DNA from: Acanthochlamys bracteata
Lineage: Eukaryota > Streptophyta > Magnoliopsida > Pandanales > Velloziaceae
Direction of reading: 5' to 3'
Length of the DNA: 64,000 nucleotides
NCBI GenBank assembly: GCA_019914995.1
Contig: CM034130.1
Coordinates: forward strand, 8,308,001-8,372,000
Both the position numbers and the translations under genes were made by a program. Of this stretch, positions 18,261 through 63,046 are shown piece by piece (position 1 is the first letter of the stretch; each line of letters opens with the position of its first letter). The notes beneath the pieces are model-generated. The model was given only the letters and a program-made list of their open reading frames with translations, did not search any database and was not told where the DNA came from.

Positions 18261-20837
18261 ATGACCATGTCTTCTTCCAGTGATCTTTCAATCTCTCCTC
18301 ACGTACGTAGCTGCCATGTGTTCATCGGCCATTGCTTTTCTCCTCGCCGACAATCAGATGCTCTCCGTTACCGTTTTGTGAAATGGCTCTGCGCCGAACT
18401 CGAGACCCAAGGTATTTACTGCTACTTATCGGACCGTAGAAAGTGTAATAGCGATCTTTCGCATTGTATTGCACGTACCGCCATGGATAGAGCATTGGTA
18501 GGAATCGTTATCATCTCTGAGAAATCTTTCGGTAATCCTTACTCTATGGAGGAGTTGCAGGAGTTTTCTGAAACCGGAAAGCTCGTGCCGGTGTTTTTTG
18601 GGTTGACGCAGGCTCAGTGCTGCGTTAGAGATGTTATAGAACAGAGAGGACAAGCTTGGGAGAAGCACGGCGGCCTGCTGTGGAAGAACTACGGAGGTTT
18701 AGAAGAAGACTGGCGGGAAACTGTAGAACGGCTCTCGCAAGCTGAGCCCATGGTTGAAGCAAATGTAACGAACATGAGGGATTCAGTGTTGGAGACTCTT
18801 GTTCTATTAGGGAAGAAGCTGGGGAAGAGACGGATTATGGAATCCGTCAAAAGGTGGAAGGAAATGGCGGCAGCAGAGGAGTTTCCGTTTCCGAGGAGCA
18901 CTTACTTCGTCGGCAGGGAGGAAGAACTGGTTGAGCTTGAGATGCTTCTATTTGGAGACGTCAAAGATAATGACCAAAAACATTTAGGAATCGGATTCCG
19001 AGATAAGGACTCTGGTGTCTCCAAGAGTAGTACAAACAGGAGAAGCACTAGCGGCGCAGTGGGCCAAAGACTGGCTAAAGAGATCCAGGAAAGGTTGCGC
19101 AAGGGGAAGGCAGTAGTAGGAGAAGATCTGGAAGAGACGAGAATGAAAGCAATTATCAGTCCTCAAAGGCGTAATTCTGTCAGACAAACGAAGAAGAAGA
19201 GCTTGTTGGAGTTGTTGTATGGTGACGGAATTGCTTGTGTGAGCGGCGATTCCGGCATAGGCAAGACTGAGCTTCTACTCGAGTTCGCCTACAGGTTTGC
19301 ACAGAGATACAAGATGGTTCTATGGATCGGTGGCGAAGCTAAACATATCCAGCGGAACTACATGAAACTGCTGCCTTTTCTGGGAGTTGATCCAGCCACT
19401 GGAAATGAAGTTTTCGACAGAAAGCACAAAACAAGAAAATTCAAGGATATCGAGGCAGTGGCGGTCGGGAAAGTTAGAAGTGAGCTGAGTAGGAACATCC
19501 CTTTCTTGTTGATCATCGACAACTTAGAGTCGGAGAAGGATTGGTGGACAGGCCGGAGCATTATGGAGCTGTTACCGTTTTCCGAAGGCAGAAGCTGCAA
19601 GACACATGTACTGATCTCCACTCGATTAGACCACGTCGCAAACATCCGACCGTTGAGGCTGCCGTTCTTGTCTGCCGCCGAGGCCTTAATGTTGATGAGT
19701 TCAAGGGACGTTGCTGGTGAAGATGTCAATGCATTCAAAAGGATAGAGGAGAAACTAGGCCGGCTTCCATTTTCACTTGCCGTAGTTGGTTCAATTCTTA
19801 CAGAGCTTTCTTTAGATCCCTGGAAACTTTTACAGATGATTGAACAAGTTGATGACAGATCTAGCTTTGATTGGAATGAAAAGGAAGGAAAGGTGCTGAG
19901 ATGGAACCCGTTTATCATTCGACTGCATGATGTGTTGTTCTCGGTTATCTGTCAAAGCAACAAGTCCGCAAAACTGGCAGCAAGAATGGTTGCAATTAGT
20001 AAATGGTTCGGGGCTTCACCGATACCCACATCCATGTTAGCCCTGGCTGCTCAGGTAAGCTCCCAGCATACCACTTCTCATGGCCGTGTCTGGAGAAACC
20101 TTCAACGTGTCATGTCGCACCTGTGCACCACAACTTCAGAATCAGATATGCTCATAGAAGCGGAGGCATTGATGATGCTTGTAAGGTTTCGGCTGGCCAA
20201 GATTGTTCCTAAAATGGGATGTATCCAAATTCATGATCTAGCGAAGATCTATGCTGGCATGAAGCAAAATACCAGAGATGCAGAAGCTGTTGTTCAGGTG
20301 ATCATGAAAGATGGACTCGTTCTCTTTCATGCCAGTCACATTACAGCAGCTTGTCTTTTGTTGTTCAGATTTGGGAACGAAGAATCTGCATCTGTGAAGC
20401 TTAACGTTATTGATCTGATGAATTTTGTTCAGCGACTTACATTACCGCTGGCGATCCATTGTTTCAGAGACCTGTCATTGTGCACTGCAGCCTTAGAACT
20501 CCTTTGTTCAGCAACAGAAGCACTAGAACAAGCAGAAAACAACTCGCTAACAGATTTAGGTAGTGCATCTAACAATAAGTCTTCTGGTTTCAGTTGTTCT
20601 ATTAGTATAAAAGCATCCGAACTTAGCATTGATCCACAAGTATATAAAGAGTTTGCCAACTTGAGAGCAACATTACTGGAGACTAGAGCAAAGTTCTTGA
20701 TGAGAGGTGGTGCCTATGACATTGCGGAGCAGCTGTGCAGATCATCTTTGAGCATCAGAGAAGTTATTTATGGATCAGAGCACCCGGTAACAATCTCCAC
20801 CTGCAAAACCATGGAAAGACTGATAAGAATGTCCTAA
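18261..20837 (+). CDS. TIR-NB-TPR protein (TNP / XTNX-type, no LRR)
   Basis: A TIR domain fused to a divergent NB-ARC-like ATPase and a TPR-like tail, the architecture of the conserved plant TNP (XTNX) group; Arabidopsis members include At4g23440 and At5g56220. Single exon, 858 aa from the first ATG at 18261. TIR spans about 17-160 with CHVFIGHCF and SMEELQEF; Glu98 sits at the position of the NADase catalytic Glu of plant TIRs. A linker with STYFVGREEELVELE (about 213-227) precedes the P-loop GDSGIGKT at 329-336. Also visible are kinase-2 FLLIIDNLE (415-423), RNBS-B-like HVLISTR (449-455), a GLPL-like LGRLPFSLAVVGS (499-511) and an MHD-like IHD (657-659). The C-terminus (about 803-850) resembles kinesin-light-chain TPRs (EQLCRSSLSIREVIYG). 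No LRR follows. The next in-frame ATG is only two codons later. Confidence 0.9.
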   Translation: MTMSSSSDLSISPHVRSCHVFIGHCFSPRRQSDALRYRFVKWLCAELETQGIYCYLSDRRKCNSDLSHCIARTAMDRALVGIVIISEKSFGNPYSMEELQEFSETGKLVPVFFGLTQAQCCVRDVIEQRGQAWEKHGGLLWKNYGGLEEDWRETVERLSQAEPMVEANVTNMRDSVLETLVLLGKKLGKRRIMESVKRWKEMAAAEEFPFPRSTYFVGREEELVELEMLLFGDVKDNDQKHLGIGFRDKDSGVSKSSTNRRSTSGAVGQRLAKEIQERLRKGKAVVGEDLEETRMKAIISPQRRNSVRQTKKKSLLELLYGDGIACVSGDSGIGKTELLLEFAYRFAQRYKMVLWIGGEAKHIQRNYMKLLPFLGVDPATGNEVFDRKHKTRKFKDIEAVAVGKVRSELSRNIPFLLIIDNLESEKDWWTGRSIMELLPFSEGRSCKTHVLISTRLDHVANIRPLRLPFLSAAEALMLMSSRDVAGEDVNAFKRIEEKLGRLPFSLAVVGSILTELSLDPWKLLQMIEQVDDRSSFDWNEKEGKVLRWNPFIIRLHDVLFSVICQSNKSAKLAARMVAISKWFGASPIPTSMLALAAQVSSQHTTSHGRVWRNLQRVMSHLCTTTSESDMLIEAEALMMLVRFRLAKIVPKMGCIQIHDLAKIYAGMKQNTRDAEAVVQVIMKDGLVLFHASHITAACLLLFRFGNEESASVKLNVIDLMNFVQRLTLPLAIHCFRDLSLCTAALELLCSATEALEQAENNSLTDLGSASNNKSSGFSCSISIKASELSIDPQVYKEFANLRATLLETRAKFLMRGGAYDIAEQLCRSSLSIREVIYGSEHPVTISTCKTMERLIRMS

Positions 20838-21766: not shown

Positions 21767-24700
21767 TCATTTTCTTCTTTTCTTCAATAAAGAACCAGCT
21801 TGTAGGAATATCTTGTCAATTTCATCCAAATCTGCTGTAGTTATCTCCTTTTCAGGTAAATAATCCCTTTTTGAGAGTGCAGCAATATTTCTCAGATGCT
21901 CTTCAAAGTCCTCCGGTTGTTCGTCATCCTTCGGTAATAACTTCTCCAGTTCATTTAAATACAGAGGCTGCTCATCCTTCATGTCTTTATCAGAATCAGT
22001 CTCGAAAATGTCAGATAAACCTTCAGATTCTGACAGAGAAGGTGCATCAAGTGATGAACCAGATTCATCATCATATGGTTGAATGACATCAGCTTCGGAT
22101 TCTATAGGTTCACCATAACTATCAAATTGATCAGAGGACATTGTTCTGACATCAGTATTGTCAAGTTTGTCCTTTATCGTCACAGTAGGACCTTCAGCTA
22201 TTCTCATGGTTTTATGTTCTCTGGCATTCTTCATCTGAATGTGGAAATCTTCAAGTTCTTGTTGGAGCCTTGGGATATACCTCCTGACTGCTCGAAGTGC
22301 ATCTCTGTACTTGGATTTGTCCAAAGCCTGAAAGCAATTCATTGAAAGCTTTTAACTGCAACATCTTCAATAAGAGATACACAAAAAAAAAAAATAGCTA
22401 GGACCAATTTCATGGGATTACAATATGGTATACACTACACTGACTTTAAAAGATAAAAGCAAGAGGTTAGCAACAAAATATAAGCATCCAAATCCAACGA
22501 GGAAAGAGACAAGTCACAGTTAAGGGTTAACTAAGCACTTTTATACATGGAGTATATGCTGTTTGGCTTATGTTCATATGTATAAGTTGCTGCTGTATAT
22601 CCCCTGATACTGTCTGCTCGAACTTTTATTCTCACAGGTAGTGCCTAAATATGCAGGGATGTATAAACCAAAAATTCTATAAAAACACAACCTCCTTCAA
22701 CACTTCAAACCTGATATTCCTTGTTCTTAAAAAAAAACAATTTTTAATGGGGAAATTTATAAAAAATGTTGTGATAAGAAATAAAATCAAGTTCCACATG
22801 TTCCTTCCTAGATATTTACCCATGTTTGTAAGAAAGGAACAATATCCATTAGTTTTTATTACTTTATTTTATATGCAAAGATTTGGAGTCAAGCCAGAAT
22901 GGGAAAGCTCATTCTTAGCGATGGAACCGGATGTTGACACCATACCAAACTCAAGTGCATCAAAGAGAAATTTGCTTGGTTTTCTCTCTTGCAAGTAAGA
23001 TTGTTTCTCTATAGCACCTCATAGACAACTGATGAGATGGTATTATAACTTTTGACCAGCATAGCAGTAGATGGTTCACTTTGATGGCTTTATAGAGGCA
23101 AAGGCAGGTACCTTTTTCCTGGATAAGGTAACTTTGGGTGACATTATTTCAGTTGGCGGCTGCGAATAGTTCTTCCCTCGAAACATAATTATAATGTTGT
23201 CTTCAACAATGTCGAGAACAATACCGCCACTTAATCTTGCCAACTCTGCAGCAATCTCTCTAACCTCTTCTGGTGTGAATGTTTTCACAATAACCTTCAA
23301 TGTCGGGTGCTTCTTCCAATGTAGATGCATGTTTAATATAACACCCTGAAAAATTCCACGTCTGCCAACAGGCACATAATTCTTGCATTTGTGACCCATC
23401 TTAAGCAAGTAAAAGTGCTCTTCTGGAGTAAGTACTTCTGGATCATGGGTTGTTTCTGAAGAATCTGAAGGTTCAATCTTCTTCAGTGCTGCAACAAGTC
23501 TTTCTTCCTTTCTTTGAGCCTATTGCAATCATTAAAAAAAAAAAGAACTTAGAATATGAAGTGTTTTGTACTCATTCATTCCCATCTTTTAATGCTTTAA
23601 GACCCCAATATTAAGTACATATTTGCACACGAAATCAACATGCAAATACATCTTTACATGTGCATGTTGTTGACGCTCGAGTGTACCTTCCTCAGTTTGA
23701 ACAAGATCTTCTCTTCTGAAGTCATTCTTTCAAATTCCTTCTTCTTCTTCCATCGGAAGTGCTTCAACCACCTTACTACTGCTCTCTTTCCTTTCAATTT
23801 TTTTCTTTTTACCTTAGGCTTACCACAGTCATCAGTAGCTGTTGAGTTGACCTCCTCCACAGACTGAGCGACATCATGTTCTGCATTATAAAACTGCTGA
23901 CTTGCATGAAAACCACGGCAACAGTTAAATTTAGAGCTATAGCTTCCATTGAAATGTCTGTATATCCTCTGTTTAGAAATGTTGGTGAAACCAGATGAAA
24001 CACTGAGGAATGGAATCTTGGTTAGAGAAGGAACAGCATAAGGAACTACCCAGATCAAAGAAACTCAGATACAAAAATAAGTAGCAGTTATTACTTGATT
24101 TAGTCATTAAGTATAAAGTGCTAAAGAATACCCAATGTTACTTCATGCAAACCTGTGGACTAATGTGGCCACAAAAACTGCTACTTATGACCGTGAAGGT
24201 TATAATTTTACATATGCTAGTACATAAACAACACAGAGCGTAACATTTTATCTCAACAGTTTTGTGAGAAAAGAACATACTACTACTTCACAACCACCTA
24301 AAGTGCAATTAGACAAATTCAAAGGATTGTCATAGGATTCAATGAACAGGTGCCTCTATATCTACTGCAATGGGCCTCAAAGTTTTTAAAACTATCAAGT
24401 TAATTGATAGAAACTCAATTTAACCAAGAGCGCACCTGAATAATCTCTTGTGTTGGCAAATGACTAGAGACGTTCCTAATTCTTGGTAGCATGCATAAAC
24501 ATATCCTTCAGCACATAAGTCTGACTATTTTCCTAAATTACATAAATATTATGGACATTATACATATTATATACACATATCTGAGTAAGGACTCAAAGAG
24601 ATCAAACACGTTTTTTCGAATTATTCGCACATTGACATGACCCTCGGTGATACATTTCAACAAACAGCTTATGTGCGCTACCCATGATGCATTACAGTCA

Positions 24701-26057: not shown

Positions 26058-26537
26058 ATGGCGTCGAAGGGCGTCGATCCATCTGAGCTGAAAAGAGTTT
26101 TCCAAATGTTTGACCGCAACGGTGACGGAAGCATCACAAGAAAAGAACTCAGCGACTCGCTACGCAACCTTGGCATTCACATTCTCGACGAAGACCTCAA
26201 AGCAATGATCGAAAAGATCGACGCAAACGGTGACGGGTGCGTCGACATTGACGAGTTCAGCGAGCTGTATCAAACGATCATGGAAGGACAGCAGGGCGAG
26301 GACGATGAAGAGGAAGACATGAGGGAAGCGTTCAACGTGTTCGATCAGAATGGCGATGGGTTTATCACTGTCGAAGAGCTTCGATCGGTGCTGGCTTCGC
26401 TTGGGCTCAAGCAGGGAAGAACTGTTGAGGATTGCAGGAGAATGATTTGCAAGGTTGATGTTGACGGTGATGGGATGGTGAATTTTAAAGAGTTCAAGCA
26501 TATGATGCGCGGCGGCGGCTTTGCAGCGCTCACTTGA
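26058..26537 (+). CDS. Calmodulin-like protein with four EF-hands (CML3/CML7 type)
   Basis: Cytosolic Ca2+ sensor, 159 aa, single exon. Four canonical 12-residue loops: 19-30 ([12 protein letters not shown]), 55-66 ([12 protein letters not shown]), 96-107 ([12 protein letters not shown]) and 134-145 ([12 protein letters not shown]). Each has Asp at loop position 1, Gly at 6 and Glu at 12, so all four should bind Ca2+. An acidic linker (EDDEEED, about 81-87) separates the two EF pairs, and the first EF-hand is preceded by only 18 residues. Length and linker fit the CML3/CML7 group rather than true calmodulin. No C-terminal prenylation Cys. Confidence 0.93.
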
Positions 26538-30885: not shown

Positions 30886-31347
30886 TTACGGAGTGTGCCA
30901 GGGCTTTGGTTCAGGAACAGCAACAACCATATCTTGAAGTTCATGCGAGAGAACAACCTGACACCAAGTCTCGAATGCATGTTCAGAACACGATTCCTCG
31001 AAGCACGAGTAAGCACATACTTCTCATCATACGACGGCGGTGGCAGTCGATCGAGCCATTCCTGAGCAATGTTGACTTCACACTCCGCCGAGCACGCATC
31101 AATCTCTTCAAGCCTACGCGAAGCAGGATCAATCAGTCCTGCGTTTGAAAGAGCGCGGAGGAGTGTGTGCCTGATAACCCTACCACTTCCCGCTTGTTTC
31201 CTTCGGGATCGATCGCAAATAGCCGCACGATGCGGTCGGAAACCTTGGCTGATGTGTTGTTGGTGGTAGCACTTGTGGTGGAGGTGAGACGGGAGAAGGT
31301 TGGGAGGATGAGAGATGGAAGTCGGCGGCAGAGAGGACCAGCGCCAT
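30886..31347 (-). CDS. Mitochondrial complex I ferredoxin-like subunit C1-FDX, frame-disrupted
   Basis: Homologue of the plant complex I bridge-domain ferredoxin (Arabidopsis At3g07480). Intronless. The ATG is at 31347 and the stop at 30886-30888. Conserved segments are all present but in three frames: KVSDRIVRLFAIDPEGNK; HTLLRALSNAGLIDPASRR through ACSAECEVNIAQEWL to LNMHSRLG; then CQVVLSHELQDMVVAVPEP and PWHTP stop. Switches lie at about 31329-31336 (after MALVLS), 31169-31170 (between LSG and HTLL) and 30962-30966 (between LG and CQ). Each is explained by loss of one base. With three bases restored the gene would be 155 codons, close to the family length of about 159. Everything between the breaks keeps codon sense, so the damage is recent or is a consensus error. 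Confidence 0.8.
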
Positions 31348-33140
31348 TGATCGATCGCCGGAGAAAATTTTACTTCTAAGGATTTGTTGGTTTTGATTGG
31401 GGGAATCAGATTGGGGTCAGTTTGAATTTGAAGGACTGAAAGGGTATCTTGGTAATTATCGTGGACAGAGGGTGGAGTTTGTATTGCTGTTATATGGACC
31501 GGGTCTTAAGCATTTATATTAAGCCCATGTAATACTAAAGTAACATATCCAGCCCATGAATAGTTTTAAGTTTTCTCTCTTACTGAAGTGTGAGAAACGA
31601 GAAGATTTAATTAAAGTTAGACAATCATGTTAAGCCATATAAACTAATCTAACACTAACACAAGGAATTTGAAAAGTAATTTTTTAACCAAGTATCTCTT
31701 TATAAAATTAGTTCTCCTCTGACAAATCAGAAGGTTGTTGAGTTGATTGACCACGAAATTTAAACAAGCAAAGAATCAGTAGAAGAAGAAGCGGAGCCTG
31801 CACCTGTGGTTGTTTGTTTGTTTAACTGTTTGTTTAGTCCTTCCGTTAATTCATCGAAGAAGAAAGAAAGAACAGTTTTGAGTACATAAATAATGCCATG
31901 AACATTAAAACTTTACTGTAAATTAATTGGGTTTTTCTATAACTTAATGTTCAATATATAATTTTGACTGTTAATTGTATAGAAGTTTGTAATTGCTAAG
32001 AGCTATTGACATGATCTTCTAATTATTCTTTAAAGCGTTCATCAGCTTTTGTTTTTTTTTCTATTATATATCTTGGAGTTAATGAAAAGAAACTTTATTA
32101 TTAATAGTTTTATAATATAGAGTCTTAAACTTTTCTTCTTCAATTGAAGAGCCTATGTTTAGCGTCTGCTAGTGAGGACAAACTTCCAATGATTCCCTAT
32201 ATAAGCTTCTTGATATTAGAGTGCTTTGAAAAACAAAGATGACTATTAAATTTCTCAAAAACCTTTGAAGAAGATGACAATTCCTTTATTTGTATTTGAT
32301 CAAGAATATAACTCCAAATAAACGATAGCATTCTTTCTTCTTTCTCCAAGCACATTATCACTTAACAGTAGTGATTAGCATAAAATTAGTAGCTAGGATA
32401 TCAACAAAATTTTCAGAAGTTACAAGAATGTGGCAAGAAAAAGGTAATGAAAAAGTTATGTATAGTTGAACTTGCAGGTTATTGCAGCAGAGAAGCAAAC
32501 AAGGAAAGAAGAAAAGAAGGGAAGTAGAACAAAAGAGAAAAAAAGAAAAAAGAGGGAAAAGAATTGATGGACAAGTGTGCAGAGATAGCAGTGCATAAAG
32601 ACAGGATTGCATTAAAATCCTCATTAACAATTCCCACCTACAACCATGAACAACAATTCAATGCCCATATTCAATGCCACCTTCCTCACTCTCACACTGT
32701 TTCTATTTCTCTCTCTAGATAGAATTCTGTCCATTGTATCTCCCTCTCTCTAAAATGAAAGGAAAAACCTCGATTCTTATTCAATCTCAGTCATTCATGA
32801 TTCAGGTCTTGTGTTAATATATGGTGTTTGTTCTATGATCTTTCATGAATTCGTATAACAACCCAAGTTCGTGTTTCTGAGTTCTTTTTTTTGTCTTTTG
32901 AAGAATTAATAAAGAATCTTATCGATTTTCATTCTCTTTTTTAGGTCATGATGATAAACATAGCATTAGCTTCTTCTTTCCCTTAAAATCCTCTCTGTTT
33001 CTCTTGTCTGATCCCAAGTTCCAAGGCTAAATTGTTCTCATCATTTCCCTGTATAAGTAGTGAGCAATTTTAAGTTAATCCATCTTCTTCCCTTTTCAAT
33101 TACCACTGGATCAGTGTTTCTTTTGTCTTCGAACAGAAAA

Positions 33141-33250
33141 AAGATTCAATCTTTACCCACATTTTCTCTGAAGGGTTCAATCTTCTACCTGTTTGTGAGA
33201 AGGATTCAATCTGTACTTACATTTCCCTTTAAAGATTCAATCTTTTTCAG
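33141..33250 (+). repeat. 60-bp imperfect direct repeat in ACR4 upstream region
   Basis: The unit starting AGATTCAATCTTTACCCACA at 33142 recurs 60 bp later as GGATTCAATCTGTACTTACA. Within each unit the phrase RTTCAATCTT appears again, so the ATTCAATCT core occurs four times in about 110 bp. Confidence 0.7.
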
Positions 33251-33278
33251 TCTCTACTTCTACCTGTTGAGCTCCAGT

Positions 33279-33286
33279 TGCATTTA
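33279..33286 (-). promoter_or_regulatory. L1-box (TAAATGCA) upstream of ACR4
   Basis: The minus strand reads TAAATGCA, the ATML1/PDF2 homeodomain target that drives epidermal (L1) expression. It lies about 200 bp before the ACR4 ATG. An 8-mer can occur by chance, but Arabidopsis ACR4 is a known L1-expressed, L1-box-controlled gene. Confidence 0.45.
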
Positions 33287-33486
33287 TACAGAGGAAGATT
33301 ACGTCTTTACTTAGATTTTCGCTATAAATTCACTCTGTTTTCCTTGGCATCTCTTTTCTTGCACTCTAGTACAGCACCAACTAATAAATTTCTATCAACC
33401 TTTCCATGTAACAACAAAAGCAACTGATCTCCTCTCCTTTTATTTTCATCCAGAATTCTCAACCAGTTTTTCATCAAATTTTATCG

Positions 33487-36177
33487 ATGATCATAATTGC
33501 CAAGCCACCATTCTCCTTATTCTTGATCACTTGTGTAGTTGCATTACTAGTGCACCATGTCAATTCCTTAGGGTCAATGTCATCCATTGCAGCTTCCTAC
33601 GGCGCCGGAGGCCCTGTCTTCTGCGGTCTGATCTCAGACGGCTCTCACCACGTTAGCTGCTTTGGTGGTGACGATGCAATCGTGTACGGTGCTCCATTTC
33701 ATCATCAATTCCTCGGTCTCACAGCCGGCGACGGCTTTGTCTGCGGCCTTCTTCTTAACACTCACCAACCTTACTGTTGGGGTTCAAACATGTACATCAG
33801 TCTTGGTGTTCCTCAGCCAATGCTCCCTTCTTCAACCTACTCCGGTATCTCCGCCGGAGACCAGCATCTATGTGCCATTCGTTCCGACAACCCAGCTGTT
33901 GTTGATTGCTGGGGATACAACATGACAACAACAATAGATCTCCCTGGAAGAGCAACAATGTTATCTGGTGGTTCTGCGTTCAACTGTGCCCTGCTCGACA
34001 GGTTGCGTTCACCATTCTGTTGGGGAGACGATACGGCGAGCGGCGTGATGAAAACTTCTCCTACTGGTCTCCGGTTCCGTTCAATATCCGCCGGCGGTTT
34101 TCATGTTTGTGGCATTCTTGAAAACTCGCAGGTTTTCTGTTGGGGAAACAGTTTTGTTTCAATGCAACAGTCTCTGGTTGCAGTTGTTAAAGGTAGCGTT
34201 GTTGTTGCTCCAATGGCAGCAATGGTAGCAGTTGTCGGAGGAAGGTTTCATGCGTGTGGAATAAAGAGTGAAGACAGGGAAGTTGTTTGTTGGGGTTACA
34301 GCGTGAACGGAAGCTTGCCACCACCGGAGAAGGTGAATGTTTACCAAATTGTTGCCGGAGATTACTTCACCTGTGCCGTTCTTGCTCAACGAAGTCTTAG
34401 ACCTGTTTGTTGGGGTTCTTCTGGACCTTGGTCCATTCCCATGGCTGTTTCACCTGGTGTTTGTGTTTCAATTCCTTGCGGTAAGGGCTACTATGAGTTT
34501 AGGCATAACTCTAGCGATACGAAAACACGCCTTTGCAAACCCCAAGATTCCCGGGTTTGTGTACCCTGCCATAGCAGTTGCCCTGATGGAACTTTTGAGT
34601 CCGCAGCATGTAGCCAGAATTCTGATCTCCGGTGTGATTTTAATTGCTCTAGCTGTGCGTCGCTGGAGTGTTCTACGTTCTGCTCTGAGGAGCACAACCG
34701 GTCTAAAGCGAAGAAGTTCTTGACATTAGAGATGCCTATTTTTGTTGCAGAGCTGGTTTTCGCTGTTGTTTTGGTGATTTCTGTCTCACTTGTTGCTCTG
34801 TTATATGTTCGACACAGATTGCACAATTGCAAGTGTTCTGTTAATCATCCGGTAAGGTCTAGAAGTAGGAGTTCTTCATCGTTCCATAAGGAATCAATGA
34901 AAGTCGGGCCGGAATTGCAGGAGTTGAAAATCCAGCAACCAAAGATGTTCACCTATGAAGAGCTTGAGAGAGCTACAGGGGGTTTCAAGGAAGAATCACA
35001 AGTGGGCAAGGGAAGTTTCTCTTGTGTATTCAAAGGTGTTTTGAAAGATGGCACAGTGGTTGCCGTTAAAAAGGCTATTATTGCCTCTGGCGTGAAGAAG
35101 AATTCAAAAGAATTCCACACAGAGCTTGATTTGTTATCCCGATTGAATCATGCCCATTTGCTCAATTTGCTTGGTTATTGCGAAGAAGGCGGAGAAAGGC
35201 TTTTGGTTTACGAGTTCATGGCGCATGGTTCATTATACCAACACCTCCATGGAAAGAATCCTTTGATGAAGGAGAAACTGGATTGGGTCAGAAGAGTCAC
35301 CATTGCTGTGCAGGCAGCAAGAGGTATTGAGTACCTACATGGGTATGCTTGCCCTCCTGTAATCCACAGAGATATCAAGTCATCAAACATACTAATTGAT
35401 GCGGAACAGAATGCCAGAGTTGCTGATTTTGGCCTGTCGTTATTAGGTCCTGCTGATAGTAGCTCGCCCTTGTCAGAACTTCCTGCTGGAACGCTTGGTT
35501 ATCTCGATCCTGAGTATTACAGGCTACACTATCTAACAACAAAATCTGATGTTTATAGCTTCGGGGTTCTTCTATTAGAGATTTTAAGTGGGCGAAAGGC
35601 AATCGATATGCAATTTGAGGAAGGCAACATTGTCGAATGGGCTGTCCCGCTGATCAAGGCCGGAAACATATCCGCAATCTTAGACCCAGTGCTGAAGCCT
35701 GCTGAAAACATTGAAGCATTAAAAAAGATTGCGGCCATTGCATGCAAATGTGTGCGGATGAGAGGAAAAGACCGACCGTCAATGGATAAAGTTACAACCG
35801 CATTAGAAAGGGCGCTAGCTCTATTGATGGGAAGTCCCTGCAACGAGCAACCAATCTTGCCTACGGAAGTAGTGCTAGGCAGCAGCAGGTTGCATAAGAA
35901 ATCATCACAGCGATCGTCGAATCCTTCCTGTTCAGAGAACGATGGGAACGAGACTGAAGACCAGAGGTTTGAGTTCAGAGCTCCTTCATGGATAACGTTT
36001 CCGAGCGTGACTTCATCGCAGAGAAGGAAGTCATCCGCTTCAGAAGCTGATTTGGATTCGAAGAATTTGGAAGGAAGGATCGTTGAAAATAATGGAGGAG
36101 ATGGATTGAGAAGTTTGGAAGAAGAGATCGGTCCTGCATCTCCACAGGAGGACTTGTTCTTGCAGCATAATTTTTGA
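33487..36177 (+). CDS. ACR4: CRINKLY4 receptor-like kinase (ACR4 orthologue)
   Basis: Plasma-membrane receptor kinase that organises epidermal and root-initial cell fate. Intronless, 896 aa, almost the length of Arabidopsis ACR4 (895). Signal peptide about 1-27; seven crinkly repeats forming an RCC1-like propeller (about 35-330) with recurrent C-W-G motifs; a TNFR-like Cys-rich segment (about 330-400); one TM helix (about 418-440); kinase domain about 490-770. Catalytic residues are intact: Lys528 in VAVKK, HRDIKSSN with Asp629, DFG at 647-649, and GTLGYLDPEYYR. The C-terminal tail keeps the family-specific SWITFPSVTSSQRRKSSASE and SLEEEIGPASP blocks that separate ACR4 from the shorter CRINKLY4-related proteins. 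The gene is convergent with GCN2. Confidence 0.97.
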   Translation: MIIIAKPPFSLFLITCVVALLVHHVNSLGSMSSIAASYGAGGPVFCGLISDGSHHVSCFGGDDAIVYGAPFHHQFLGLTAGDGFVCGLLLNTHQPYCWGSNMYISLGVPQPMLPSSTYSGISAGDQHLCAIRSDNPAVVDCWGYNMTTTIDLPGRATMLSGGSAFNCALLDRLRSPFCWGDDTASGVMKTSPTGLRFRSISAGGFHVCGILENSQVFCWGNSFVSMQQSLVAVVKGSVVVAPMAAMVAVVGGRFHACGIKSEDREVVCWGYSVNGSLPPPEKVNVYQIVAGDYFTCAVLAQRSLRPVCWGSSGPWSIPMAVSPGVCVSIPCGKGYYEFRHNSSDTKTRLCKPQDSRVCVPCHSSCPDGTFESAACSQNSDLRCDFNCSSCASLECSTFCSEEHNRSKAKKFLTLEMPIFVAELVFAVVLVISVSLVALLYVRHRLHNCKCSVNHPVRSRSRSSSSFHKESMKVGPELQELKIQQPKMFTYEELERATGGFKEESQVGKGSFSCVFKGVLKDGTVVAVKKAIIASGVKKNSKEFHTELDLLSRLNHAHLLNLLGYCEEGGERLLVYEFMAHGSLYQHLHGKNPLMKEKLDWVRRVTIAVQAARGIEYLHGYACPPVIHRDIKSSNILIDAEQNARVADFGLSLLGPADSSSPLSELPAGTLGYLDPEYYRLHYLTTKSDVYSFGVLLLEILSGRKAIDMQFEEGNIVEWAVPLIKAGNISAILDPVLKPAENIEALKKIAAIACKCVRMRGKDRPSMDKVTTALERALALLMGSPCNEQPILPTEVVLGSSRLHKKSSQRSSNPSCSENDGNETEDQRFEFRAPSWITFPSVTSSQRRKSSASEADLDSKNLEGRIVENNGGDGLRSLEEEIGPASPQEDLFLQHNF

Positions 36178-36419
36178 TGAAACAAGAGAGAAATATTCAG
36201 AAAGAAATTGTGTAAGGAATTTAAAATTCAATGCAAGTCCTAGGTTTGCGTGCATCGAAGAGAATACGAACAATCACTTCTTTAATGTATGTTATAGGCT
36301 GCATATCGTAATGGAGGAGTTCATAGGTTTCGTAAAGCAATAATTCTGTGTGAGACCGGTAAAAAAATAGTTGTCATTTTTCGTTCTCTTCTCAAAACAA
36401 AATTACAGCGAACAACATA

Positions 36420-36491
36420 TGCCCTCACGCAGGATCGAATTACGGACCTTTAGTTTACAAGACTGACGCTCTACCATTGAGGTACAAGGTT
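36420..36491 (-). pseudogene. tRNA-Thr(UGU) pseudogene
   Basis: The minus strand carries a 72-nt tRNA-like sequence with an intact anticodon arm (GTCAGTCTTGTAAACTAAAG, anticodon TGT at 36459-36457) and T arm ending TTCGATCCTGCG. It is decayed: acceptor pairs 1-72 and 2-71 are mismatched (A-C, A-G), D-stem pair 10-25 is C-C, and the A box (TACCTCAATGG) and B box (AATTCGATCC) each differ from consensus. No CCA and no clear oligo-T follow. Most likely a nuclear tRNA-Thr relic. Confidence 0.7.
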
Positions 36492-38321
36492 CGTTCTTGT
36501 GAGAGGAATAACACTAACGACTAAACGATAGACTCGTGATATACGTAACTGTTAGCTACAAAACATGCAACAAAACCTATGAAATGATAAGAGCGATTAA
36601 ATCAAATGATTAATTATACAGCATAGCTAAAAACTTTAATTTGTCTTTTGGAGTGTGTCATGTATCCTCAAAATTTTCGTATCAACTTACCATTTGACAA
36701 AATATATGTGCAGCATATGTTAGTAGGGGGAAAAAAATCCTTCCGGCAAAACTCGTGACAAGGAAGCAAATGCTAATACTGTATTTCCTCAATTGTTGTA
36801 CATGACTGTATAAAGCTATTCAAGCTAAGACCAACAATTATGGGGGGGGGAAGAGAAACGGAACTACTAATACCCTAACTACTGATTTACATCATTACAG
36901 CGAAGGAAAAGGAATTGTATTTATGAACCTTCTGCTACTTTTACCTGAAAATGTAACAGCCAAAGGCTACAGAAAAGGCCATGCTGCCGCACACAATGAT
37001 CCAAACTTCAAGCTTAGTTATTTCACACTTCAAGGCATGATATATCAAGCTGATGATGTTTGACATAGGTAACATGTTTACTTCACTTTCTTTCGTCCAG
37101 CAGAAGCACACTGCAAAACTCTTCCGCATGTTATTCTCCACACACTTCCCTTGGGTTGAAACCATGAAAGAAAATTTGAAATTCCAACCCCAAATACATA
37201 AAAGTTCCTGGCTAGAGAATAATGCGATAGTCTCCTTTGGTACCTGTTACAAAAAAGAAATTTGGAGACACCGAGCGAAAATTCACATATTAAGTAATTC
37301 GAAAAGAAGAAAAATTCAAAGTGGAAGTATACAGTAAACTACATACTATTTAATTTTCTTTAAGTTCAATTCGAGCTATTGTAATCTGGTTAGCTTTTGT
37401 AGTCAACATAGCTGCAGGCTTCAAATTGAACAAATACAATTACTCAACTAGAACATCCGACAGTTCAAATTATTAAGAGGGAAACCTAAAAACAATTGTT
37501 CATTGTATAAGTAACATTTAAGTTCATACCGAAAGGAATGTCACAGTAACAAATGAAATAAAGAGAAGTAACATGCATGCAGTTTCCTCAAAATTTTTTA
37601 TTAGAGAGACGCCTAAAATGTTATTTACACACAAGACCTATGTAGTTTCACCGAGCCAAGAAGTTCCGAGTATTTTAAAAGAAAGGCCAGCATAGTAGCA
37701 ACTGAGCAACAGGTGTTGAAGATGCAGAAAGCATAGAGCAGAAACACAACTGCCAAACCATTGTTAGAAGCATAAACAGAAAGCCGAGGAAAACTACACA
37801 AAACTAAGTAATCCTGCTTGATGACGAGCTCATGCAAGCAGCAAGGTTTCAAAAGGAATGCTACAGTTTGATGATAGTGAGCACCATCTAAGGATGTATA
37901 TACCAGTTTCAGATTAAACTAACCAACTATGCTAGTGTAACACTGATGTTGGAACCGTGCCACATATACTGTCCCATTACATGGGGTGTAGAGATATTCT
38001 TATCACTAGAATGATGTTTTACTCCATGACTCTAGGTGTGAGATAACACATGCACAAGTCAAAACTTTTTCTCAAAACAATTGAACATCTCACAGCTGAA
38101 TTTGAAAGCTAGCTGATTAAGCTGAGTTCAAATTGAGCACTATCAACTTGAGCAACGTCAGTGGTGTCCTAACTTATGCCCCTTATTATAGCATTACTAC
38201 CATCATTACAGTAACTAGTCTTATGTAAGATCATGTACCCACCCTGATGTCCCAAAAGAAGAAGAAGAAGACGAAGAAACTGAAGGGCAAGAAAGTAACC
38301 TGAAATTCTAACCAAAAATAA
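36492..38321. other. Intergenic / 3' UTRs of convergent ACR4 and GCN2
   Basis: No coding sequence recognised. A G9 run lies at 36842-36850. The GCN2 3' UTR begins just below 38322. Confidence 0.45.
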
Positions 38322-54798
<16,477 letters not shown>

Positions 54799-55844
54799 GA
54801 CTCCAATTTAATGTACTATCGCATACAAATTTCATACACAATTCAAACCATCACTCGAATCGACTACCTATCGCCTGAGATTTTACTCTACCAATCAGAT
54901 GTCTTCAACAACAAGCGATCAATCGGTCAATCGAAAAGAACAATAATTGCAACGAAGGAATTTTCTCACAAGCGGATTGAACCGAACGAGAATTGCACGA
55001 GAGAAGGAAACTGAAGAGTTGGAAAGAAAGAAAACTTCATGGAAGCCTGCTCAGACGAACGATGGCGCGGAGAGATGGTTGGGATTTTATATGGGACGGG
55101 GATTGGGATGAACCTTGACTCAAAGGTCGATCAGATTCGCATCCAGCTCAGAAGATCGGTAACATCCAGGAGCTAATATTATAAAGTTTTCCAATTTCAA
55201 GTCCTTGTTTTAGAGCTTTTTTATTGCAAATCAAACTTTATTTCGGGGGCGTGCGGAAATTTTTTTAAAATCAAAATTTTCTGAAATAAAATATTTTTAT
55301 TTTTTAAAAAATAATAAAAATATATAATAAAGATTTTATTATGTAGAAAGATAAGTATATTTTGACTATTATCGTACGTAAAAAGACAATAAACTATATG
55401 TTAGAAAAAGATTTCGTCATATTTTTTTGTTTAATTGATTAATTTCTCACAAAATTTCCTACTGTATTACTTTAACTTTATCGAACTATAGTTATCATGA
55501 TCTGGTTATTTCGAATTTAATCTCAAACAATTACTATTACATACCACATCTAATGGTAAAAATCTTACTAGATTCGACAGAAAAAAGCTACCAAACTTAA
55601 AACATATATCGGATCACCTTTTAGATATATGTTTTTAAGTTTTTAATACAAAAACGTACATCACAGTAATTCAAAAAAATTTTAAAAATTTGAAAATATA
55701 GTTAAATTGTGTCATAAAATTATTATACATATAAATCTTTTTTCAAAAAATTATTAAAATGTCCTGACAGATATTTTTTATTTAGCTATTCCAACATGCG
55801 CTGAATATGCAGATCTCTAATAAATACTTTTTCACACTACGGGC

Positions 55845-56060
55845 ATATTTATTTTGCTTGAAAGTGACTTTCGAAAAATGATTTACTTAGAAAACGATTC
55901 TTAAAAATAAATTTATTTTTGTATTTATTTTTTATCAAAATTGAGTTTGAAAGTAGAGCTTTTAATTTAAATATAGTTGTTGAAAGTGAAATTTAAAAGT
56001 GAAAAGAGTTTTTTGTTTACCTTTTATTTAAAATGAGTTAAATTTTAAAATTTTTGGCTA
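55845..56060. mobile_element. Degraded MITE-like sequence
   Basis: GGGCATATTTATTTTGCTTG followed by AAAGTGACTTTCGAAAAATG parallels the left end of the 47837-48055 element, and GAAAGTGAAATTTAAAAGTG recurs within it. The right boundary is unclear. Confidence 0.3.
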
Positions 56061-57540
56061 AAAATATTGAATTTAAAGTGTAGATAAGTACACTTTAGTC
56101 AAACCTAATTCGAATATCAACTCAAATAAATTGTCGAATTATCGCATCATTGGATCGATCCACTGTGTCATTTTATCGATGGCGATAATAGAGCACATTC
56201 TTGATTTATCAGACTCAAATTTAGGTGCTTTAGATGTCATTTTCAATCGGCAATGTTACCAAAGCCAAAGAATTCTCCAACAATTTTGACCTAGCTAGTG
56301 GAATTTCATCTTACGATTCGACAAGTAGTGTGATCGCATGTCTCACTGGAGCAGTTTCACCTTCAAGAACAACAATCGCCGCAAGAAATCCATCATAGAA
56401 AGTCTCAACTTTCATATCAACCTTATCAAACTCAACACAACAACAAACTCGCACTTGGAAAGTTTGTTCCTACAGACTTCGTCTGTGAAAGATCTTCCAT
56501 TCAGTTAATGTGGAACTCAATGCAGGCATAAAAATCTCATGAATCTTTCCTTGAGTTAGTGTGGAGCACGACGGTGATGGTAAGCTTCGTCGTGGACGGA
56601 GAAGAAGAGTTTAGTTGAAGAATGCTTGTCATTAAGGGAGATGAAAAAGGGATCAGGAGAGGAGAAAAAGGATAACAAAAGAATGAGATTTGTGTTTTTT
56701 GGTTTTGATTTGTGTAGTTATGATTATGTATAAAATTGTTTTTGCTTTAGGCAATGCTCCGATCAAAATATTTCGATTAGTGATAATGATCTAAATAGCG
56801 ATGATGAGCATCGGCTTGCTACCATGATTCAGTAAGTGACTCAGATCAGAATGACAATCGGATCATCGATTTTTTATTCAACTCTGCCGGTCTGGTTCAG
56901 ATATGACTATATTGGATAAGTATGGCCTATAACTACGAGGCTTTGAAGTCAAAGTCAAGTTTTTGCTTTATTTAATTTATATTGTTTGATTAAATTATAA
57001 ATAAGCCAAATATCAAAGATACTTATACTACATTATAAATCAAATAGCTATTTATACAACATTGATTATGTATTAACAAATAATCCTTCAAATTCTAACA
57101 AAGCTAGTATCCAAATTCTAATAAATTCAATGCAAGGGTGACCGAGAAATCAAATGACAAAAAAAAAAGGAAAAAAAAGCTAATGAATGAGACCGGAGGG
57201 TATTTCTCAATTTCCGAACTCAAAAATTTCTTTTCTAGATTTTAAATTTGGACAATTTTACATATTTTCGTTACAATTTAGAATTCTATTTTCATTTTCA
57301 TACAAACTCTATTTATCAAAACTCTGTTTCATTTGTTTCAGTTTTCACTCTAAATTTTACTTTTAATAAACTTTATTTTTCATCAAACTCTATTTTTATA
57401 AAATTTATTTTTTGCAAAATTCAATTTTAAAAACTAAATTATATATTAAAATCGACAAGCTAAGCACTATTTTGCCCAACCTGAAGTCAACTCTAATAGA
57501 TCAATCAACAATCTGAATCTAACCCAGCTTGGATTCTTGG

Positions 57541-57780
57541 TGCGTTTAGAATTGCATTTCAAATACAATTTTTTAATTTTTTTCATTTCATAATTTTTAA
57601 TATATACTTTATAAATATTTAAAAATTTTATTTAAAAATTCAGAGAGTGTAGAAAAATTTTACATATTTTTATTACAAAAATATTTTTATTATGTTTTTA
57701 AAAATAAAAAAAATAAAATTTATTTAAAAAAATAAAAATATTTTTATTTTAAAAAAATTCTATTTTATAAATAATCTCAG
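57541..57780. mobile_element. AT-rich MITE-like sequence
   Basis: Begins GGTGCGTTTAGAATTGCATT and continues as A/T homopolymer blocks (AATAAAAATATTTTTATTTT) like the 26962-27345 element, ending near AATAATCTCAG. The inverted ends are weak. Confidence 0.3.
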
Positions 57781-57992
57781 ATTTAGCCAATTTCATGGCA
57801 ACCAAATGTTCCAATTCACCGCAACCTGAATCAATCCATCTATCACATGACCGTATCCAGCCTCATCCTTAACTCCACCAATCACATACACTTCTCCCTC
57901 CCTTTTCTTTAGATGTATAACCCCATCCTCTCCCTCCTCCCCGTGAACTTAACGCTACACACTCCTCACTCTTAATTTCCTTCTCTTCTGTC

Positions 57993-58692
57993 ATGGCTAC
58001 CAGTTCCCTCAAGTCATCTCTTCACCATTACCGTCGACAACATCACTCGTCGTTCGCTTTCACTTCCGATTCATGTGTAATATTCTCGCGTTCATCAATA
58101 TCTACAAAACCATTTTCAAACCTCTCTCTTTCATCATACAACTCTGCTATAACTGCAGTCTCTGCAATAACGCAAACAACGACATCGAGCTCAGCTGCGA
58201 TAAATGACAGTTCCGCAACTACCACGTTCGACAAACTAGCAGAGCACCTCTCTGCTGGTGACTTTCGCGAAGGGGACGAAGAAACGCGTAGGCTTCTAAT
58301 AGAGTTAGCAGGTGAAGCAGCACAGAAGAGGGATACGTTTTTTTCTCTGAAGTGCAGTTCATTTCCTCGGACGATCTCCGTGCTATCGACAGACTTTGGA
58401 AGCAGCACGGTGGAGGGAAGTACGGGTACAGCTTGCAGAGAAGAGTTTGGGAGAAGTGTCGCCGTGACTTTACGCGATTCTTCATCCGTGTTGGTTGAAG
58501 AAGCTAGATACAGAAGTGGAACAATACAACTACAGAGCTTTTCCTGATGACTTTATGTGGGAGATGGATTCCGGCCTGCCTGACGGACATCTGCCACTTA
58601 CCAACGCGCTCAGAGGAACGCAGCTGTTGCAGTGCATTTTAACGCATCCTGCTTTTGAAGAAAGCTTCAAAGAAGAAGAGAGAAGAAAATAG
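57993..58692 (+). CDS. GUN4: GUN4 tetrapyrrole-binding protein, frame-disrupted
   Basis: Chloroplast activator of Mg-chelatase and part of plastid-to-nucleus signalling. Intronless, ATG at 57993, Ser-rich transit peptide (about 1-75). The GUN4 fold starts FDKLAEHLSAGDFREGDEET. Two frame breaks: at 58330-58332 (AAGAGGGATACG; one G is missing to continue GYVFFSEVQFISSDDL) and at 58493-58498 (IRVG then KKLDTEVEQYNYRAFPDDF; one base, or four of a GTTG repeat, missing). The rest (LRAIDRLWKQH, WEKCRRDFTRFF, GHLPLTNALRGTQLLQC) is well conserved. The 700-bp span plus two bases makes 234 codons. As written, the first frame would add 72 unrelated residues and stop. Lies next to GCN2 as in Arabidopsis. 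Confidence 0.88.
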
Positions 58693-59449
58693 AGAAAATG
58701 GAACAAATGGTGACGAATCAAATGGAGAGAAAGGACGAGAAAAGAGAGGGAGAGAGAAGTCTAGGCTTCTTAAAAGCCTTAAACCTGATTACTCGTTCTG
58801 ATTGATTTTGTTTCAGTGATATTGGACAGAGAGGAAAAAAACAACAACAACAAACAACAATTTAGCAGTGATCAAGCTAGTTGTAAGAAACAAGTTTAGT
58901 TTGTTACATGGGGAAGATCAAAGATGGTGCTATGAGGTAATGCATGTACTTTGTGTACTCTGTAAGGATTGATTTGTATCTAGTTTTGTTCCGTGGCCAG
59001 CAAGACCCGTTGAAAGATTTTAATTTTGCTGAGAAAGAAATTCCTCAACTACCGAGGCTTACGTAGAACTTCGCTATCTGGTTGTTTTCTTTCACTTCGC
59101 TAAGAAAACAATTGATGGACGATCTTTGTAGAAGATGCATTTTACAGACATGCTTATGCCAGCAACACGCACCTTGGTAAAATTGAAATTGCTGTTGATT
59201 GATGCTGTACAATAATTTGCATTTTCTTGTTGAAGCAGCAAAGAGCCGTCAGACTTCTCATAAATCTTAAGAAAGAATCGCCCGAAAGACCATAGAGTAG
59301 CATGCACCAGGATTCTAAACTACAAATATCCAACATATACAAACCAAATCCTTAGGGGCATCACCTGTGACTTCAGCAGGTTGATCTGCTCCAGCACTGG
59401 CCAAACATGAAGCCTTACAGCTTGTTACAAACAACAGTAAGTTTGTTAC

Positions 59450-60281
59450 CTGCAATTATTGGCTTTGCTATCTTTATCTTTGTTGCAAGGTCTTCTGCGT
59501 CTACCAAAGAGCCCAAAATAAGCAAGTTAAAACAGTTCCAACTTCATAAGAAGTTAGAAGTTACAGTTTGAGATATACCCTAGATGGATTCAAGCAGCAT
59601 GAAACACAATATTCGTATGACCTACAGCACTTGCAGACAAGGTTGTATACTTGCATCCCCTGCACAGACAAGGTCCGCAATGAGTATATTAGTCTAACCC
59701 AAACTACACGAATGTTCAGAAAGGGGAACCTAGTACAAGAAAATCCCTCCCCAACTTTTGGACAGCAGTAGGACAAAGAATTGACCAATAGGACAGTGCA
59801 TACATATCATTCATAATCAGTAAGAAACAGTTAAGACTTTTTATATGGACAGACCTGGAACATGCCAATCAAAGCGAACAATCTGCTCAAAGCAGCAACA
59901 CTGAATGGCCAACTAAAATTTGAAAGAGACTCAACCATTTGTTGTATGGTTCATCTAAACCACTTTACTGATACCAGCTTCAGTTACTAAGTTACATTTC
60001 ACTAACTATGAAAAAAAGCAATTGGTTTGACAAGCATGTCAGGTTTGCCTAAGTTCAGAAATGGGATTCGAGTGACTTTTTTGTTGTCTAAATTGTAAGC
60101 AACATAAAAGAACTTTCGGACTGAAATAGACCTTTTATAAAGATACAACAGTTTGAAATAATAACGAGGAGCAAAGAGCAAAATTGCAAATACAAGAGTG
60201 AAACACCGTTATCATCTGACAACAAATACCTTCTTGGACAGTATTCGTACATATATGCTTCTCCAGAACACCAACATCTCA
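59450..60281 (-). CDS. SPRING-like cysteine-rich protein (C12orf49 family), frame-disrupted
   Basis: Plant relative of SPRING, the animal Golgi protein that licenses site-1 protease; its plant role is unknown. Recognised exons: about 60281..60207 (KHICTNTVQ, RYLLSDDNG), about 59807..59730 (YVCTVLLVNSLSYCCPK, GEGFSC), 59659..59579 (VCKCCRSYEYCVSCCLNPSR), 59500..59450 (TQK, LATKIKIAKPIIAG). The YEYCVSCCLNP motif and the C-T-N-T-V-Q / LLSDDNG and CCP-FSC blocks are diagnostic. The frame breaks inside exon 1 (between VQ and RY, one G missing), between FSC and CKCC, and after TQK (one base missing). The second exon lacks an obvious AG acceptor. The N-terminal TM exon and the end were not found. 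Confidence 0.55.
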
Positions 60282-63046
60282 AGAAGAGTAGAATGTGTAA
60301 ACAGTTATAATTAACGAGTATAACAACTTATTGTACCTATAGATGCCTCAAATTGAGTACGGGTATATATTCTAGTGCAAGTGAGCTAAAGTAGTTCATT
60401 GTATTGATCGCTATTACAACTGGATTGTAAAAGATCTACAAAATGCAAGTCATGGTAGGCTTAATAAAAACCGAGAATGTTATTGTAATTGCATAACCAA
60501 AAAAGAAGTTTTCTGTTCAAGTTTATATCATACTTTTAATGCTTTTGATGGCATACACAAACTGCAGAGTGCATATGAAGTCTAAGACCACCAGAAAATT
60601 GTAGAGAAGATTTACAACGGAACAATAGCACCTGTAAGAACTGATCATATTGACCATAACTTAATACTGAAATTTCAAGTACAATAAACCTCACTTAGCC
60701 TTCCAATCTTTTCCAGGTGGTAGGTTAGGCAAAATTTAAAAAGTTGCTAGGAAAGTAGTGTTAGTGTCGCACTATCCAAATTTTGCAGTTGCGGTGCTAT
60801 GAACTTAGCAAAAGGTTTTGTTCATATCATCCCTTACGTACCTCAAGTTCAACTAATTTTTTCTATCCAATTCATAAGAAAACATCTGAATTTGTACAAT
60901 TTCGACAATTAGTTTAACTTTATAAAACTCAAAACTATCCCTGATTGTGTTCATCTACCTGCAGAACATCTTGTCAGGTTTCCCTTCACGCTCTCAAGCT
61001 CATATCATTTGCTCTAAGAAGCCACCGATAATTAGGTCATGCAGAAGTTCATTTTCAAATATAAACAAAATTTTCAAAGTGCATTTACCAGGTGAATTAA
61101 AGAAAATGTGCCTAAAAAGTCGAGCATTTAAAAAACTAGCACTACCAAAAGCTTCGACATGATAAAAAAATATAAACAAACAAGGAATTTTAGAATGCAG
61201 CAATTCCATGAGATAGTCGAGATTCGTGAAGACTATCCTAGAAAGATCACTGTAAGATTTAAAAAGAACTAGAAGCACCCACGCGATCTCTAAGCTTGAG
61301 CGAGATTCTCCGTTTCGCTGCTTAAGCTTTCGCAATTTTCGAAAATCTTCCCTTTCTTTTTTATCTCTAGGAGAGAAGAACAGTGCGATTGGGCCTGGGC
61401 ATTCGTCGGACGAGCCCCAAAGTGGCAATTTCGTAGTCTCGCTTTCGGGTAACCATTGACTTTTCGAAATGGCATATTCTTACATGGAAGGTATAATACA
61501 GTAGATCCTCCTATAAATATCTTTCGCAGTACAAGGCCCCAAAGCTTTTTTCCAGTTGTTGAGCTTTCCCTGCTGATTTCTTATGCATACATCTATATTG
61601 TATTTCATAATGCACGACAACATTGGCGAAAAGAAATTATATCATTTAGGCCAGAGGATGTATTTTTAGATTAAGGTAATGTGAAAAATCGAGTACTTAT
61701 TCAGTGATGCTTCAATGCGTCTTAGGCAACTTTTTTCATGCATGCAAATTAAGAATGAGATTTTGTTAGTCCATTTCTACCAAGAGACATTTCTTATTAA
61801 TAAGAATAAGACCAAATTAGTGATATGAAAACTTCATCCATTAATATAAAAAGAGTTCTAAGTTTCAGAATTTTCAAACTATTTTATTAACTCTACTTCA
61901 ATTTTTAGGGGAACGTTCAAAGTTCCTTTCAATATAGCTAATACTACGCAGAATCTAAAGATGCACCTTTTAAGTGAGTTAGAATTTTAAAGAGCACTTT
62001 AATTAAAAGTCAAAAACATTATGATCAGTTTGAAACTGTATAAACTTCTAATTTGTTTATTATGATAACTCTATCAAATAAGCCCCAAGAATCATTAAGC
62101 TAGTCCATAATATCAGATTGAGGGCTCCACATCATTCATAAATCTCCCAGAACAAAAAGCCTCCACACATATTGTACATAACTTTGAGAAACATAAGGAC
62201 CACAACATAACAAAAAGAATATTGATGGAATAAAATTGCGAAACCCAAACTTTTGTGTTTTGTGGTTGGAAACACAAAGTTTCTAAAATTATTATCTTTG
62301 TGTTTTGATATTTTCTCATTTGACGCCTTTATATAAATATAATTACCCCACGCGCGCATTGATTGACGACAGCGAAGCGAAACACCAACAACATCAACGA
62401 GAAAAGGAAAAGAGAAACAAACCCGCTGAGGGGATCTGCAGCCACCGTCTCCCGAGGAGACAACAACACGCATGTAGGTGATATCGATTTTCTCTTTTGC
62501 TTCTATTTCTTTGAAGCTTCTGGAATTGATTCTTAGGTTTTGTTGCTTCACACGATTTTCGTAGTTTCATGCTTTTGTAATGACGAATTTCTCAAACGTT
62601 TCTCGTTTCAGGCTGGTCCCCGATAGCTGGATCGACTAGAAGGAAGAAGAGATCGAGCGATATTTTTATTAATGTTTTATTCATAGGCAAAAATTTTGCT
62701 CCTAATGACAGAGTTGAGGCCATTGCGTGGAGAGAGGATCTAATGCTTGAGCTGATTTCATCTGGGTAGTAACAGTCTTGAATTGATTGTGTTGAGAGAG
62801 AAAAGTTTCAAAACAGTCTTAGTAGATTAAATTGCCGGAGGCTTGTACCAAGCTCATTGGAAAGGAAAGTAGTACTAGCAGTAGGAGATAGTGACTCAGA
62901 CATCGAATTACATAAGGGTTTAGTTGATTATGTTGGGAGCATATTGGATTACTGGGTCATCTTTTTTGTGAACAAAAATTCCAGGACACAATATTTCAAT
63001 TGCTAGTTTGTTGTACCCTGATTTGGGTTTCACTTGGGATTATAAA
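60282..63046. other. Upstream of SPRING-like gene and leader of EFOP gene
   Basis: No coding sequence recognised. 61270-61450 is less AT-rich and may be the SPRING-like 5' exon. 62340-62620 (CACGCGCGCATTG, CCGTCTCCCGAGGAG, then TTTCAG at about 62606-62611) looks like the promoter, leader exon and leader intron of the plus-strand gene starting at 63047. Confidence 0.4.

Follow-up and report, generated by a model that had tools for sequence, protein, structure and literature searches.

After whole-genome duplication, plant genomes shed homeologous genes by fractionation: within colinear blocks one copy of a pair is lost, losses fall on both sides, and some pairs are kept. In excerpts of Yu et al. 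2020 (PMC7775554), the losses are mostly excisions, and pseudogenes are rare or very transient. The maize tetraploidy study, as excerpted (PMC2893956), describes short-deletion loss of redundant homeologs and reports it as biased to one subgenome. Here we describe a 64,000-nucleotide stretch of the Acanthochlamys bracteata genome (G000; 195.5 Mb in 557 contigs), positions 8308001-8372000 of contig C5, which we call the window. Three of its conserved genes, GUN4, the complex I ferredoxin gene C1-FDX and a SPRING-like gene, have interrupted reading frames. Comparison with their partners on contig C3 indicates that they are very probably decaying duplicates, in an early stage of reciprocal fractionation after a whole-genome or segmental duplication. 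The features of plant homeolog fractionation listed above recur at this locus, as do the small and mid-size deletions of redundant homeologs described in the maize excerpts. Loss here shows no bias, with three genes broken on C5 and two on C3, but a sample of five is too small to test for the bias reported there. The absence from C3 of a stretch holding the gene called GCN2 agrees with the excision picture in the excerpts of Yu et al. 2020; however, five near-full-length or partial decaying copies lie within about 100 kb, and set against those excerpts the present block is either a local exception or a case that is still young. The process itself is a known one, post-duplication fractionation, caught in progress.

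When 100 kb of C3 was compared with a 104-kb region made up of the window and its surroundings, C3, read from 2688720 down to 2620142, matched the region from 11 kb before the window to 20 kb past it. The match is mostly colinear and inverted, with a few off-diagonal matches, which are tandem copies or repeats; the two segments form a colinear homeologous block of the kind seen in post-duplication fractionation. In this comparison, no colinear C3 match was found for about 37-57 kb of the window, which holds the gene called GCN2. The original prediction had proposed a search for second copies of GUN4, C1-FDX and the SPRING-like gene; whole-genome DNA searches found each of them on C3 in synteny, all within 12 kb. 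We infer that the window belongs to one of a pair of homeologous segments produced when the whole genome or a large segment was duplicated, the whole-genome part of this being drawn from one block. Excerpts of PMC11891173 date a duplication on the stem of Velloziaceae such as Acanthochlamys to about 24 million years ago.

The C3 twin of GUN4 (C3:2633506-2634243, 82% identical in the DNA search) is a single open frame of 274 amino acids, and the C3 and C5 copies were the only GUN4 places found in the whole-genome searches. On C3 the PF05419 profile matches within a single open frame, on C5 in three pieces that lie in three frames. Three-frame translation of the C5 copy gave at least two frame switches, each of the same step. 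Pair alignment placed a one-base loss near 58329, a four-base loss near 58492 and a four-base gain near 58682; the remaining gaps are multiples of three. The two breaks first reported for this gene, at 58329 and 58492, are real, although the second removes four bases and the third had been missed.

The twin of C1-FDX (C3:2640832-2641310, 86% identical in the DNA search; pair alignment with C3:2640849-2641304) is likewise a single open frame, of 151 amino acids. The name is taken from those of homologous proteins, 'mitochondrial complex I ferredoxin' among them. A C1-FDX protein query matched the C3 copy whole and the C5 copy in three pieces, and these two were the only places found in the whole-genome search. 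The three breaks claimed for this gene were confirmed: translation showed three frame switches, each of the same step, and each is a one-base loss relative to the intact twin (near 31335, 31171 and 30965). The C5 copy also has one in-frame 9-base gain. An intron or alternative-frame reading of GUN4 and C1-FDX was ruled out, the C3 copies being single open frames that align through. Both genes are intronless in both copies, so they are uninformative on the retrocopy question.

The SPRING-like gene is informative on that question; its relic on C5 keeps intron sequence and several splice sites, and is not a retrocopy. Its C3 matches (2629249-2632106) fall in two pieces, 76% and 93% identical in the DNA search. 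With exon limits of our own choosing, GT-AG splicing of the twin at C3:2628766-2632282 yields an open spliced model of 11 exons and 277 amino acids, whose protein matches Pfam SPRING1 with an E value of 4.5e-37. A SPRING1 profile search of the genome itself matched nothing; the control also matched in 0 of 14 genomes, hence the search is uninformative. On C5, exons 2 and 5 have each lost one base and the acceptor before exon 3 is changed; reading by eye adds a gain of 8 bases in exon 4 and a remnant of exon 1 that lacks the start codon. Two matches (59437-60341 and 59316-59422) are separated by 14 bases on C5 and 1887 on C3, so that about 1.87 kb, containing exons 6-9, is missing. C5 has probably lost this stretch, as opposed to C3 having gained it, because exons 6 and 7 fall within the SPRING1 domain. 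The real lesions of this gene are those in exons 1-5 and the missing exons 6-9; since the twin has 11 exons, some of the apparent frame switches are exon ends. The dN/dS (ratio of nonsynonymous to synonymous substitutions) of the pair is 0.47 over few sites, and its changes were not polarised.

The original prediction held that breaks occur in these three genes and nowhere else. Within the window this stands for the genes covered by our exon-by-exon frame check, namely ACR4, the TIR/NB-ARC gene, the calmodulin-like gene (CML) and two BBX exons (the check did not extend to GCN2, eIF2A, CRM and TNP). That three genes are broken is more than chance, as ACR4 and BBX show matching breaks on C3. C3 ACR4 has a 43-base loss, gains of 10 and 7 bases and one stop; C3 BBX (C3:2661980-2663120) is a pseudogene, carrying four stops and five indels that break the frame within the two exons examined. 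In the TIR/NB-ARC pair all indels are in frame, and the CML pair has in-frame gaps only or none. Of the eight pairs compared, C5 carries the broken copy in three and C3 in two; the other three are unbroken, and no pair is broken on both contigs. The partner is open for all five broken genes in the parts examined (for BBX, two exons only). Disabled frames thus stand beside recognisable functional relatives, as in unprocessed pseudogenes. The intact 13 kb or so of coding sequence that had seemed puzzling is explained where tested: ACR4 and BBX are the surviving copies, the GCN2 exon is single, and CML is open on both contigs.

Table 1. Genes of the window considered here (positions count from the first base of the window)
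Feature	Position	Strand	State or evidence
GUN4, decaying duplicate (candidate)	57993-58801	plus	frames, pair alignment, PF05419, conserved-site excess
C1-FDX (complex I ferredoxin), decaying duplicate (candidate)	30886-31347	minus	frames, pair alignment, whole-genome search, conserved-site excess
SPRING-like relic: exon-1 remnant, exons 2-5, 10 and first part of 11; exons 6-9 gone	59299-61290	minus	C3 twin comparison
ACR4/CRINKLY4-type receptor kinase, open frame of 896 amino acids	33487-36177	plus	C3 copy broken
BBX gene, two open exons (16262-16573, 16664-16924)	16262-16924	plus	C3 copy broken
Calmodulin-like gene (CML, EF-hand)	26058-26537	plus	open in both copies
TIR/NB-ARC/TPR gene	18261-20837	plus	open in both copies
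Protein kinase exon of gene called GCN2	46370-46747	minus	

Such breaks might instead be consensus errors in two poorly polished patches of C5, with the genes intact in the plant. In favour of this, one-base losses make up six of the nine small C5 breaks that are secure, and three of the six lie in G runs; if three SPRING-like gaps of uncertain alignment are added, two from the worn first exon and one from the exon-3 end, the count is 8 of 12. The statement that nearly every break is the loss of one base was nevertheless too strong. Lesions on C5 measure 1, 4, 8 and about 1870 bases, and a start codon has been lost and a splice acceptor changed; on C3 they measure 1, 4, 7, 10, 11 and 43 bases, with five stops in addition. 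In the ordinary noncoding DNA of the block, too, indels of one base are the most frequent class (245 of 432 whose size is not a multiple of three). Moreover, it is always one copy of a pair that is broken, with the side switching between neighbours, and the open ACR4 of the window lies only about 2 kb from the broken C1-FDX. With the excess of substitutions at conserved residues described below, these observations speak against poorly polished patches and make consensus error very improbable. Judged from the sequence, the lesions follow redundancy, not assembly patches. The other option originally offered, copies dying after duplication, is supported by the syntenic second copies of all three genes on C3, the mixed sizes of the indels and the excess of changes at conserved residues.

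Selection on the copies was examined with the best 120 listed orthologues of 514 for GUN4, of 427 for C1-FDX and of 1458 for ACR4; for the last, 118 were used, as two longer than 1000 amino acids were dropped. Alignment columns filled in fewer than 80% of orthologues and codons touching a gap were also dropped. Pairwise C3/C5 dN/dS is 0.19 for GUN4, 0.11 for C1-FDX, 0.125 for ACR4, 0.20 for TIR/NB-ARC and 0.05 for CML; these low values imply constraint on both copies through most of their history. Polarised amino-acid changes are more numerous on C5 than on C3 for GUN4 (23 versus 13) and C1-FDX (9 versus 2), also at sites at least 90% conserved (6 versus 1 and 4 versus 0). Pooled, the two genes give 10 versus 1 at conserved sites (p 0.012) and 32 versus 15 over all changes (p 0.019). 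ACR4 shows the opposite, with 70 changes on C3 versus 28 on C5, and 28 versus 4 at sites at least 90% conserved (p about 2-3e-5 for both contrasts). When only sites at least 95% conserved are counted, deviations number 5 of 76 (GUN4), 4 of 72 (C1-FDX) and 28 of 411 (ACR4) in the broken copies, and 1, 0 and 12 in their open partners. Orthologues deviating as often as the broken copy number 0 of 120, 1 of 120 and 0 of 118, respectively. In all three genes, selection is relaxed on the disabled copy.

A simple two-phase estimate gave times since loss, in substitutions per site, of 0.045 (0.020-0.074) for GUN4, 0.023 (0.003-0.045) for C1-FDX and 0.027 (0.015-0.038) for ACR4, or 20%, 11% and 10% of half the synonymous divergence. 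Gene loss therefore looks late, within about the last 10-20% of the branch length since the copies diverged. In noncoding alignments of the block, 432 indels of frame-breaking size per approximately 3352 estimated substitutions correspond to 0.129 each, a rate that comes from BLAST matches and is biased to the better-conserved stretches. At this rate 4.8, 1.3 and 9.2 frame-breaking indels are expected in GUN4, C1-FDX and ACR4, and three were seen in each. The counts agree with the estimated loss times and the noncoding indel rate of the block, and no excess calls for consensus error. Secure small frame-breaking indels number 17 in 4865 bases of broken copies versus 0 in 11478 bases of open ones, the zero being partly by definition as these copies were chosen as open (chitinase is excluded from the lengths, and the 8-base gain is counted by eye). 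Boundary gaps at cut ends were left out of the counts, as were the three uncertain SPRING-like gaps in exon 1 and at the exon-3 end.

Several points weigh against decay of redundant duplicates as set out above. The low overall dN/dS (0.11-0.19) means that loss must be late. The deviation of the open ACR4 is itself high, its 12 sites exceeding the orthologue 90th percentile of 8 and approaching the maximum of 13, so the whole lineage is fast; C3 ACR4 also has fewer indels than expected. The open C3 GUN4 deviates at 4 of 92 conserved columns, close to what three scale species show (3 to 5). Taken alone, C1-FDX is the weakest case: all three of its breaks are one-base losses, two in G runs, and its 4-versus-0 contrast is not significant (binomial 0.125), the support being the comparison in which 1 of 120 orthologues reaches its deviation. 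Together with its indel count above expectation and pair dN/dS of 0.11, this would suit a mixed case, in which GUN4 and the SPRING-like gene are true pseudogenes but at least one C1-FDX break is a consensus error and the gene is alive or just dying. The four changes on C5 at residues at least 95% conserved, with none in the C3 copy, argue against this, and we regard the mixed case as unlikely. Excerpts of PMC11446459 describe C1-FDX as important to the plant from Arabidopsis mutants. Less likely still is a retained role for the broken C5 copies, such as that of a regulatory RNA or a short peptide. The N-terminal frame of C5 GUN4 is open for 208 amino acids, but it is GUN4-like only before the break at 58329, conserved residues are changed in excess, and the lesions are spread along the genes.

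Under fractionation of redundant homeologs, both the C5 and the C3 copies would have been under purifying selection for most of the time since divergence. Later, one copy of each of several redundant pairs would have lost function, after which frameshifts and stops would have built up, splice sites been lost and larger deletions taken place. C5 would have lost GUN4, C1-FDX and the SPRING-like gene, and C3 would have lost ACR4 and BBX and retained no recognisable copy of the GCN2 stretch. The broken copies are presumably non-functional in the plant, redundancy having allowed their loss. The loss times of the three datable genes overlap, despite a divergence between the copies of about 0.2-0.25 per branch. 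A reciprocal, roughly simultaneous late decay of long-constrained homeologs, fitting allopolyploidy or delayed rediploidisation, is conceivable on these grounds, but we hold it only tentatively and consider it rather doubtful.

Some further observations concern other parts of the block. A whole-genome search with the GCN2 kinase exon (378-base query) found no second copy. With a 6-kb GCN2 query the result was dominated by a dispersed repeat about 220 bases long (1648 candidates, of which 40 were scored, giving 41 matches); such repeats lie at about 47828-48060 and 49150-49380, inside the gene called GCN2. In a tree of 33 proteins, the window ACR4 falls on a long branch among rows that we take to be monocots; in a 16-row monocot set leaving out aroids its branch is also long (0.51), with no close annotated relative. 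Class I chitinase genes are in tandem on C5 (window -185 to 850 and 3295 to 3771), versus a single chitinase place at C3:2676499-2677545; two chitinase exons are open on both contigs. An open reading frame of 194 amino acids (window 21767-22351, minus strand) shows frame switches relative to C3:2650221-2650715 and has no Pfam match; it is either a gene or a chance open reading frame.

What appeared to be an assembly flaw can be read as gene loss in progress, in which neighbours are lost on opposite homeologs and the intact partners serve as built-in controls. When GUN4, C1-FDX, the SPRING-like gene, ACR4 and BBX are annotated here, the open copy should be taken and the other labelled a pseudogene. 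If decay was indeed late and simultaneous, loss would have been caught at the stage of full-length pseudogenes, before excision; under allopolyploidy, the subgenomes would have diverged in separate species and gene shedding would have begun only after they met. Late synchronous timing, if it proved true genome-wide, would bear on how long duplicates remain constrained, and on whether they are lost as pseudogenes or by excision.

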